The position numbers and the translations under genes were made by a program. From Caulobacteraceae bacterium (GTDB lineage: Bacteria; Pseudomonadota; Alphaproteobacteria; Caulobacterales; Caulobacteraceae): a stretch of 64,000 nt of DNA. The stretch is taken from assembly GCA_947441065.1 (NCBI GenBank), contig CANESI010000002.1, positions 62,001-126,000 of the forward strand, read 5' to 3'. The notes below the pieces were generated by a model. It saw nothing but the letters and a program-made list of their open reading frames with translations, was not told where the DNA came from and did no database searches. Numbering within the stretch: position 1 is the first letter of the stretch; each line of letters starts with the position of its first letter. Shown one piece after another: positions 2,499 to 11,724 of this stretch.

Positions 2499-2514
2499 TG
2501 TTCCACGTGAAACA
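2499..2514. promoter_or_regulatory. parS: parS-like ParB-binding site 1 (one mismatch)
   Basis: The 16 bases TGTTCCACGTGAAACA match the near-universal bacterial parS palindrome (TGTTTCACGTGAAACA) at 15 of 16 positions. The site is in the gap between mnmE and mnmG. ParB loads at such sites to form the segregation complex near the origin. Confidence 0.88.
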
Positions 2515-2544: not shown

Positions 2545-2560
2545 TGTTTCACGTGAAACA
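2545..2560. promoter_or_regulatory. parS: parS ParB-binding site 2 (perfect palindrome)
   Basis: The 16 bases TGTTTCACGTGAAACA are identical to the consensus parS and form a perfect palindrome. The site starts 46 bp after site 1 begins and ends two bases before the mnmE stop codon. It lies about 8 kb from the putative oriC at 10,328-10,875, the spacing and gene context seen in Caulobacter. Confidence 0.96.
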
Positions 2561-9271: not shown

Positions 9272-10327
9272 TTAAGAGCCAACAACCCGCGCCAAGACCT
9301 GCTCGACATGGGAAATGGGCGTATCGGGCAAGATCCCGTGGCCAAGATTGAAGATATAGGGTCCACCGCCCCATTGGACCAACATCTCTTCAACACGCCG
9401 ATCAAGGGCTGCTCCGCCTGCTCGCAAAAGCAAAGGATCAAGCGCGCCCTGAATGGCTGTGGTCTGCTGAAGTTGGCGACCGAAGGCCGCTGAGGCTTGA
9501 ACATCCATCGCCACAGCCTGGACCGGCACCTTAGCGACATAGTTGGCAACCAAGGTCCCAGCACCCTTTGGAAAGCCGATAAAGGGCGCATCGATCCCTG
9601 CGGCCCGCACCTTTTCGATAATCCTCATATGGGGACCAATGACCAATCGCTCAAAAAGGTCCTCAGGCAGGTTTTCAGCCCACGATTCAAAGAGTTTTAG
9701 AACCTGGGCCCCGGCCTTGGCCTGCATGATCAGATAGAAGGCGGTTGCCTCGACCAATATGTCGATCAAGCCATCGAGCGCTTCTGGGTGTGTATAGGCA
9801 TAGGTCCGCGCTCCGGTACGGTCGCTTGAGCCCCCTTCGATCATATAGGTCGCCACGGTCCAGGGCGCGCCGGCAAAGCCGATCAGGGCCCGCTCAGGCT
9901 CCAAGGCTGCGCGCACCCGGCTCAATGTCTCACCAACAGCCGATAGCCGTCCTGTAGAGGCCTCAATCTGATCGCGCATCGTCTCGAGGGGGGGCAGGGT
10001 ACCGAGCTTTGGGCCTTCCCCAACTTCAAACCGAACATCCTGACCCAAGGCTCCGGGGATCAGCAAGATATCGGCAAAGACGATGGCGGCGCTGAAAGCA
10101 AAGCGGCGCATGGGCTGCAAGGTCGCTTCAGCTGCCTTTTCCGGGTCCAGACAGAAGGATATGAAATCGGGAGCCGTCGCGCGAAGGGCGCGATATTCTG
10201 GCAAATAGCGACCCGCTTGGCGCATGAACCAGATCGGTGGTTTGGCCAAGCTTTGACCTGCAAGAACCTTGAGCAAGGCTGGGGTCGATGGTCCGGCGGC
10301 GCCGGTTGGTGTCAGGATCTGGTTCAT
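9272..10327 (-). CDS. hemE: uroporphyrinogen decarboxylase HemE
   Basis: HemE removes four carboxyl groups from uroporphyrinogen III to give coproporphyrinogen III. The 351-residue protein has the signature WFMRQAGRYLPEYR near residue 33, the FADILLIPGALG segment with the catalytic Asp, and GFAGAPWTVATYMIEGG. It is the first gene of hemE-hemH-hemJ. It borders the putative replication origin: in Caulobacter and Rickettsia the origin also lies between hemE and the ppsR/DUF299 gene. Confidence 0.97.
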   Translation of the reverse strand: MNQILTPTGAAGPSTPALLKVLAGQSLAKPPIWFMRQAGRYLPEYRALRATAPDFISFCLDPEKAAEATLQPMRRFAFSAAIVFADILLIPGALGQDVRFEVGEGPKLGTLPPLETMRDQIEASTGRLSAVGETLSRVRAALEPERALIGFAGAPWTVATYMIEGGSSDRTGARTYAYTHPEALDGLIDILVEATAFYLIMQAKAGAQVLKLFESWAENLPEDLFERLVIGPHMRIIEKVRAAGIDAPFIGFPKGAGTLVANYVAKVPVQAVAMDVQASAAFGRQLQQTTAIQGALDPLLLRAGGAALDRRVEEMLVQWGGGPYIFNLGHGILPDTPISHVEQVLARVVGS

Positions 10328-10505
10328 GGCTCCCTTAAAGCCATTTCCCTAGTCAGACTCAAGCCCGCACCCATAGGAAGGTCTCTTCCTTTTCTTATTA
10401 AGAGAAGAATAGAAATATATGGGGTGAAGGTAGAGGCAGGGCGCAAACGGGACAGCTCCACCGAAAGCTAGAAAATACAAACCCGCTCCCAGTGCCTTCC
10501 CAGCC

Positions 10506-10514
10506 TTATCCCCA
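10506..10514 (+). promoter_or_regulatory. DnaA-box-like site in oriC
   Basis: TTATCCCCA differs by one base from the DnaA box TTATCCACA. It contains the TCCCCA core described for weak DnaA sites (W-boxes) of the Caulobacter origin. Confidence 0.5.
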
Positions 10515-10578
10515 GACGCCCACACGGACCGCCAATGGCCTGTGAAAAGCGGGGATTGTTTGAAACAGCTTGAAGAGA

Positions 10579-10594
10579 TTAACAAAACCTTAAC
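10579..10594 (+). promoter_or_regulatory. CtrA box 1 in oriC
   Basis: TTAA, seven bases, then TTAAC (10579-10582 and 10590-10594) is an exact match to the full CtrA site TTAA-N7-TTAAC. CtrA bound at such sites blocks replication initiation in Caulobacter swarmer cells. Confidence 0.78.
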
Positions 10595-10619
10595 GCCAAT
10601 GGTTTCAGGGCGGTGAGTC

Positions 10620-10635
10620 TTTAGAACTTGTTAAC
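10620..10635 (+). promoter_or_regulatory. CtrA-like box 2 in oriC, next to a GANTC site
   Basis: TTTA-N7-TTAAC has one mismatch from the CtrA consensus. It directly follows a GAGTC (10615-10619), a CcrM methylation site. The two CtrA-like sites at 10579 and 10620 are 41 bp apart, about four helical turns, so they face the same side of the DNA. Confidence 0.5.
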
Positions 10636-10786
10636 CATAGGCCATGGTCGGCACGATCAGCCACGCACCTACCGGGTTCGGACGGGGAAAAGACGTGGCA
10701 AAATGTAGCGCTTTTCCAATGACCCGTCAGGCCGCCGCCAAGCCACGAATTTGCCCCCAAACCGGCCACCGCTCGAGCCCCCGTCG

Positions 10787-10802
10787 TTAAGGTTTCGTTA
10801 AC
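10787..10802 (+). promoter_or_regulatory. CtrA box 3 in oriC
   Basis: TTAA-N7-TTAAC (10787-10790, 10798-10802) is a second exact CtrA site. It ends four bases before the DnaA-like box at 10806-10814, so CtrA and DnaA would compete there. Confidence 0.78.
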
Positions 10803-10805
10803 CCT

Positions 10806-10814
10806 TTTTCCACA
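10806..10814 (+). promoter_or_regulatory. DnaA-box-like site next to CtrA box 3
   Basis: TTTTCCACA differs from TTATCCACA by one base and keeps the TCCACA core. It lies about 60 bp before the ppsR start. Confidence 0.5.
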
Positions 10815-10875
10815 GATCAATTTTCCAAAACCACAATGCTTGCCGAACCTAGGCCTTGAGGGCATGACTAGGGCC

Positions 10876-11724
10876 ATGAGCCACACACCGCGCATCGCCA
10901 CCTATTTTCATGTCCATCTCGTGTCGGATTCCACCGGCGAGACGCTTAATGCCATGGCCAAGGCGGTCTGCGCCCGTTTTGATGATGTCTTACCCATCGA
11001 GCATGTCTATGCGCTGGTCCGGTCGCCGCGCCAGTTGGAACGGGTCTTAAAAGAGATCGAGGCCTCGCCCGGGATCGTGATCCATACCATTGTCGATAAG
11101 GGTCTACGGGTAGCCTTGGAAGAGGGTTGCCGAGACATCGATATGGGCTGTATCGCGGCGCTTGACCCTTTGGTGTCCGCCCTTGCGCGCTATTTGGGCG
11201 CGTCCCTCTCGACCCGCGTGGGTGCCCAGCACACGCTTGATCACGACTATTTCAACCGCATTGAAGCCCTCAACTACGCCATTGGCCATGATGATGGTCA
11301 AGGCACCCAGCACCTTGAGTCCGCCGATGTGGTCTTGGTGGGGGTGAGCCGAACCTCAAAAACGCCAACCTCGATCTATCTGGCCCATCGCGGCATCAGG
11401 GCTGCCAATGTCCCGTTGGTCCCCGGGTCTGAGCCGCCGCCGCAACTGTTCAATCTCAAAAGAGCGATGGTGGTTGGCTTGACCGTGTCCCCCGACCGAT
11501 TGATCCAGATCCGGCGGAACCGCCTCTTGAGCCTGAAAGAGGACCGTGAAAGCACCTATGTGGATACAGAGTCGGTGCGCGATGAGATTGTCCGGGCCCG
11601 GCGGATGTTTGAAAAACATGGCTGGCCGGTCATTGATGTCACCCGCCGCTCGGTGGAAGAAACAGCCGCAGCCGTCATGAACCTCCTATCTGCCGCCAAG
11701 GCTGCCGCCGAGACCCCCGCATGA
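10876..11724 (+). CDS. ppsR: pyruvate,phosphate dikinase / PEP synthase regulatory protein (DUF299)
   Basis: This is a bifunctional Ser/Thr kinase and phosphorylase. It switches pyruvate phosphate dikinase or PEP synthase off and on by ADP-dependent phosphorylation and phosphate-dependent removal. The 282-residue product starts with FHVHLVSDSTGETL and has the P-loop-like GVSRTSKTPTSIYLA at about 158-172. The frame opens earlier (TTG at 10840, ATG at 10864), but the ATG at 10876 best fits the family. Which dikinase is controlled cannot be told, since neither target gene is in the window. It is the first gene of a five-gene unit running away from oriC; its stop overlaps the maf start as ATGA. 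Confidence 0.93.
   Translation: MSHTPRIATYFHVHLVSDSTGETLNAMAKAVCARFDDVLPIEHVYALVRSPRQLERVLKEIEASPGIVIHTIVDKGLRVALEEGCRDIDMGCIAALDPLVSALARYLGASLSTRVGAQHTLDHDYFNRIEALNYAIGHDDGQGTQHLESADVVLVGVSRTSKTPTSIYLAHRGIRAANVPLVPGSEPPPQLFNLKRAMVVGLTVSPDRLIQIRRNRLLSLKEDRESTYVDTESVRDEIVRARRMFEKHGWPVIDVTRRSVEETAAAVMNLLSAAKAAAETPA

Follow-up and report, generated by a model that had tools for sequence, protein, structure and literature searches.

The hemE-PPSR intergene and its neighborhood

We analyzed a window of 64,000 nucleotides (G000:C2:62001-126000) from contig C2 (154,190 bp) of a 2.92 Mb assembly. Its central feature is an intergene of 536 bp between hemE and PPSR (Table 1), for which the window gene calls and family models gave the hemE and DUF299/COG1806 borders typical of Cori-type origins. 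To the left of hemE follow hemH, rho, mnmE, two parS-like 16-mers 46 bp apart, mnmG, rsmG, a ParA-like gene and parB, and to the right of PPSR a maf-like gene, an aroE-like gene, coaE, dnaQ and secB. The parB product scored over the TIGR00180 cut-off, and the ParA-like gene matched no model over that model's own cut-off. Both parS-like sites were called with the parS consensus. Together with parB they lie 8-12 kb from the intergene, with parS alone at about 8 kb. The distance between origin and parS reported for C. crescentus is also about 8 kb (PMC4468827). The PPSR protein is 100% identical to that of a freshwater Caulobacteraceae-labelled MAG, 83-99% identical to others so labelled and 82% identical to that of Caulobacter sp. 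CCUG 60055. Judging by these nearest named matches, on which the family name rests, the host is an uncultured freshwater member of the Caulobacteraceae.

Table 1. Positions in the window of the putative origin intergene, its borders and its sequence elements.
Feature	Position	Strand	Basis or remark
parS-like 16-mer, one mismatch	2499-2514	.	C2 position 64499
parS 16-mer, exact	2545-2560	.	mnmG/mnmE gap; C2 position 64545
hemE, uroporphyrinogen decarboxylase (left border)	9272-10327	-	TIGR01464, 359.8 bits (cut-off 302.95)
Probable origin intergene, Cori counterpart	10328-10863	.	place between hemE and DUF299, box cluster, blocks kept in relatives
GANTC (GACTC), CcrM-type site	10356-10360	.	motif match
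AT-richest 40 bp, candidate unwinding element	10381-10420	.	30/40 A/T; putative function
Decayed hemE-side CtrA box	10395-10409	.	5/8 half-site bases; alignment with relatives
TTATCCCCA with W-box TCCCCA (10509-10514), weak candidate DnaA site	10506-10514	+	W-box as defined in PMC4285127
Central CtrA box TTAACAAAACCTTAAC, exact	10579-10594	+	TTAA-N7-TTAAC match
IHF-like site TAACAAAACCTTA, inside central CtrA box	10580-10592	+	one mismatch to the IHF consensus WATCAANNNNTTR
GANTC (GAGTC), abutting the CtrA-like box at 10620	10615-10619	.	motif match
CtrA-like box TTTAGAACTTGTTAAC, one mismatch	10620-10635	+	starts 41 bp past the start of the 10579 box; also in L009 and L011
DUF299-side CtrA box TTAAGGTTTCGTTAAC, exact	10787-10802	+	minus strand also exact, from 10786
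DnaA-like box TTTTCCACA	10806-10814	+	one mismatch to TTATCCACA
PPSR (DUF299; right border)	10864-11724	+	ATG at 10864 or 10876; NF003742, 340.7 bits (cut-off 225)

An earlier note on this DNA had listed two exact TTAA-N7-TTAAC sites, a third with a mismatch, two GANTC sites and a DnaA-like box, and we found every one of them in its place. It did not include the decayed hemE-side box, the IHF-like site, the W-box at 10509 or the AT-richest 40 bp. The decayed box aligns to an intact TTAA-N7-TTAA in four relatives (L017, L018, L044 and L086). The intergene thus holds several CtrA boxes and an AT-rich block (10381-10420), as Cori-type origins do, and the boxes are more numerous than composition predicts: when the intergene was copied 20,000 times under a first-order Markov model, two or more TTAA-N7-TTAA sites appeared once, and at least three boxes at >=7/8 half-site bases in 11 of 2,000 such copies.

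The exact CtrA 16-mer matched the assembly 11 times, at 10 distinct places. Two of these places are in the origin intergene; the reversed control matched 10 times. The 16-mer is therefore no commoner than its control, and the CtrA signal consists in the cluster within the intergene, not in the genome total. Elsewhere in the genome, exact boxes sit in the divergent promoter of flgB/fliO and upstream of eipA, and others adjoin a glutathione synthase gene and several unnamed genes. One of these boxes (L108, contig C52) lies between tandem 255-aa open frames (319-1086 and 1252-2019) with near-identical starts; neither frame had a Pfam match and the first had none in NCBIfam.

Among DnaA-type sites the window intergene has two E. 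coli-type boxes with one mismatch each, a single exact W-box and a single TCCACA; neither an exact G-box (TGATCCACA) nor an exact E. coli-type box (TTATCCACA) occurs there. The DnaA-like box TTTTCCACA begins 4 bases past the CtrA box at 10787 when this is read as a 15-mer, and 3 past it as a 16-mer.

A search of the genome for ctrA and ccrM, which the earlier note had proposed as a check, returned a ctrA gene over its cut-off (NF045991, 371.6 bits; cut-off 350) and a CcrM-type RAMA domain (C62:792-1088), the part of the putative methylase that was read. With GcrA, encoded at C38:2423-2905, the genome has the genes of a CcrM/GANTC circuit. The DNA-binding region of CtrA is conserved, as a CtrA-controlled origin would demand: in the 27 homologues readable out of 30 loci, residues 147-201 were identical in 25, and the other two carried the single change Q156E. 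Homologues of the chpT, popZ and FlhA families were also found. They fit the asymmetric division that the earlier note had thought probable and that we regard as plausible, and they demonstrate nothing about it. The dnaA gene lies at G000:C5:37911-39329, off the 154-kb origin contig. We considered whether this was unusual and rejected the idea: in the ten family genomes where a single contig carries both, dnaA and PPSR are 58-415 kb apart, so a dnaA gene off the origin contig is the usual state.

hemE-PPSR intergenes across the family and within the genus

Of 107 loci requested, 99 had hemE and PPSR within reach, and merging of 9 duplicates left 90 distinct intergenes, 69 from Caulobacteraceae and 21 from other lineages. 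Eight loci without hemE in the flank were left out, namely L010 and L039, which run into a contig edge, and L022/L047 (one genome), L024, L030, L051 and L123. The five genomes behind the last six loci have no hemE upstream of PPSR within a flank of 1.5-6 kb; even so, all five carry CtrA-like boxes upstream of PPSR that have no more than one mismatch.

All 69 Caulobacteraceae intergenes have a box at >=7/8 half-site bases, whereas in Markov copies 6.0 of 69 do on average. Boxes of this quality number 149, compared with 6.4 expected. The spacing is specific as well, with 69 exact pairs at spacing 7, 16 at spacing 6 and 0-3 at spacings of 4, 5, 8, 9 and 10. By the same >=7/8 measure 48 family intergenes have two boxes, 10 have three, 7 have one and 4 have four; 25 of the 69 lack any exact box. 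Since the window is among the ten with three, and most have two, its boxes are ordinary in number, and the comparison does not support the earlier note's variant architecture in any distinctive sense. By this measure the family norm is one to four boxes, usually two, so the five sites footprinted in C. crescentus should not serve as a standard. The decayed hemE-side box is, as far as the alignment goes, a small difference between the window and its family. Of the 21 intergenes of other lineages, 9 carry an exact box and 4 lack any box at >=7/8.

The layout of the intergene is also shared. Of the 69 family intergenes, 64 have a box at >=7/8 in their middle third, 11 in the hemE-side third and 14 in the DUF299-side third; in 65 the AT-richest 40-mer belongs to the hemE-side third. 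DnaA-type cores exceed expectation, with 68 copies of TCCACAG (3.1 expected) and 115 of TCCCCA (36.1 expected). Two further patterns were tried and rejected. From a nine-sequence alignment it had looked as if CtrA and DnaA sites formed a composite of fixed spacing, TTAAC-N6-TCCACA, throughout the family. Only 11 of the 69 intergenes contain TTAA-N4..9-TCCACA, however, so the composite is not general. Nor did the CtrA boxes of the family intergenes correlate with their DnaA-core sites (Spearman 0.03, p 0.78, n 69), and a trade-off between the two was rejected as well.

Within the genus, where the comparison leaves out G003 (locus missing), the exact central and DUF299-side boxes are both present in four genomes, that of the window included (G000, G001, G002 and G006). 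The window, L009 and L011 share three boxes although the L011 intergene is only 66.9% identical. Two further genomes, G004 and G005 (PPSR identity 83-84%), have no exact CtrA box in the hemE-PPSR intergene (L012 and L013, respectively): the central and right-hand boxes are gone, while alignment showed that the AT-rich block and TATCCACA are kept. W-boxes number five in L012, three in L013 and one in the window. The single >=7/8 box of L012 was reached in 557 of 2,000 shuffles and the three of L013 in 19 of 2,000. G005 encodes ctrA with residues 147-201 unchanged and has nine or ten exact boxes outside the intergene, about as many as the control; G004, an assembly 73% complete, gave no ctrA match. 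From these two assemblies of one sampling series we would suggest, as a tentative and rather doubtful reading, that origin CtrA boxes are turning over within the genus, and that the sister lineage may have shed direct CtrA control or shifted to a new box at -136/-127. Among the titles and abstracts listed on CtrA box evolution in Caulobacteraceae origins, none dealt with turnover within a genus. If the reading is true, box-keeping and box-losing sister species would form a natural pair for testing box function, and the loss in a pair of sister species, of which one has a ctrA match, would amount to a small natural experiment on the control of replication by CtrA.

GC skew, GANTC sites and competing explanations

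On contig C2, where we used raw and four-fold-site skew, the raw cumulative curve is shallow and noisy and reaches its minimum near 82 kb, 9 kb to the right of the intergene. In another genome, G024, from which 40 stretches of 20 kb were sampled (0.8 of 5.55 Mb), the minimum is at 4.17 Mb and PPSR at 3.65 Mb. When the origin was fixed at PPSR, 24 of 1,000 permutations reached the fit, so that the site beats chance and is not the best place; with strand-corrected skew this fit is 0.054, versus 0.060 for the best at 4.23-4.30 Mb, within a best-fit range of 4.16-4.30 Mb. Gene-strand bias in G024 fits best at 3.54-3.61 Mb. In G016 (20 stretches, 0.4 of 2.67 Mb) skew gave no signal. The skew check proposed in the earlier note thus leaves the origin neither refuted nor proved.

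A GC skew that leaves the site unmarked would suit an explanation in which the boxes are purely transcriptional: CtrA would act on the promoters of the divergent genes hemE and PPSR, and replication would begin elsewhere. The boxes do lie between divergent genes, CtrA boxes occur at ordinary promoters of this genome too (flgB/fliO, for example), and the five genomes without hemE in the flank still carry boxes upstream of PPSR. A promoter function leaves unexplained, however, the family-wide excess of the DnaA-type cores TCCACAG and TCCCCA, an AT-rich block that 65 of the 69 intergenes have in the same third and parS 8 kb away, and the place is homologous to that of the experimentally mapped Cori (PMC1914354). 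We regard this explanation as highly improbable. A somewhat less remote, still improbable alternative accepts the origin and holds that its control by CtrA has weakened in the genus, the boxes being remnants and DnaA alone setting initiation. It draws on the decay of the hemE-side box to 5/8, on the absence of exact boxes from L012 and L013 and on the frequency with which shuffling yields the lone >=7/8 box of L012; against it stand the three boxes kept in the window, L009 and L011 despite the divergence of the L011 intergene, and the three >=7/8 boxes of L013, which shuffling seldom yields.

The GANTC sites raise the further question of whether the origin is under a CcrM methylation gate. The genome encodes a RAMA-domain protein, and GANTC is depleted on contig C2 (151 sites versus 649 under a first-order Markov model and 369-636 for seven permuted motifs), yet it reaches 3.7 per kb in the intergene (2 in 536 bp, versus 151 in 154,190 bp). 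Such depletion has been described for Alphaproteobacteria, and GANTC is reported to be over-represented in intergenic DNA in general (PMC3973325). The intergenes of relatives are similarly dense (78 in 24,549 bp versus 676 in 559,315 bp of flanks); the 69 family intergenes gave 260 GANTC readings against 328 expected, so there is no excess over composition. Nor have relatives preserved the GANTC sites of this intergene: alignment showed that the GANTC at 10615 is missing in the near relative L011 (98% PPSR identity), and the L012 and L013 intergenes have no GANTC at all. In C. crescentus, initiation control is reported to stay normal after deletion of ccrM, CcrM being dispensable there (PMC3973325). 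Because that deletion is harmless to initiation control and the 10615 site is absent in L011, GANTC methylation is unlikely to gate initiation here, and we give a CcrM gate hardly any credence. The earlier note had coupled replication to a CtrA/CcrM cell cycle; the ctrA gene agrees with the CtrA half of that proposal, and the role given to GANTC is weak, for the same two reasons.

The proposed origin and its relation to known systems

Our preferred reading, to which we assign a probability of about 0.93, is that the intergene serves this uncultured freshwater member of the Caulobacteraceae as its chromosomal replication origin and is homologous to Cori in place and make-up. The earlier note had arrived at the same origin, and its proposal is borne out by the hemE-DUF299 intergene, the clustered boxes and a genome with ctrA, chpT, a RAMA domain, gcrA and dnaA. 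Several findings count against it: skew minima that lie off the site, a CtrA-DnaA pair in only 11 of 69 intergenes, no exact G-box or E. coli-type DnaA box, a single exact W-box and a 16-mer about as frequent as its control. If correct, it locates the origin for an uncultured freshwater lineage of the family. As a Cori-type origin the site belongs to a familiar class and is ordinary within it.

We observed the sites, the gene order, the genes for the proteins and the conservation of the boxes across the family; for binding, competition, melting and timing, C. crescentus offers a model that may apply here. The C. crescentus origin is described as combining five CtrA sites with G-boxes, W-boxes and an IHF site that overlaps one of the CtrA boxes; CtrA~P is reported to exclude DnaA there, and IHF to displace CtrA (PMC1914354, PMC4285127). 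By analogy, phosphorylated CtrA would occupy the central pair (10579 and 10620) and the DUF299-side box (10787), and from these boxes would keep DnaA off the adjoining TTTTCCACA and the weak W-boxes. IHF may be able to compete with CtrA at 10580. Removal of CtrA would then permit DnaA to assemble, upon which the AT-rich block at 10381-10420 would open.

With Cori the window shares the position between hemE and DUF299, TTAA-N7-TTAA boxes, an AT-rich block and parS within 8 kb (PMC1914354, PMC4468827, PMC4285127), together with putative weak DnaA sites and a candidate IHF site that overlaps a CtrA box (PMC1914354, PMC4285127), the IHF-like site of the window having one mismatch. It differs in having three CtrA boxes at >=7/8 and one decayed box where Cori has five footprinted sites, and one exact W-box and no exact G-box (TGATCCACA) where five W-boxes are reported for Cori; the position of dnaA off the 154-kb origin contig is also listed as a difference from C. 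crescentus. In the origins of Rickettsia and Wolbachia, the hemE border and CtrA, DnaA and IHF sites are described as shared features, whereas in Wolbachia, Ehrlichia and Anaplasma COG1253 is reported to replace DUF299, with zero to seven boxes (PMC1914354). Sinorhizobium meliloti likewise has an alphaproteobacterial chromosome and a conserved CtrA, but its origin is described as lacking CtrA motifs and as not bound by CtrA (PMC4433202). CtrA of H. neptunium is reported to bind one site adjoining its origin (PMC7200025). With one such site in H. neptunium and none in S. meliloti, box number thus varies among Alphaproteobacteria. Brevundimonas and other Caulobacteraceae have in common with the window the borders, the middle-third box (64/69) and the AT-rich hemE side (65/69), and a DUF299-side box, found in only 14 of the 69, is present in the window.
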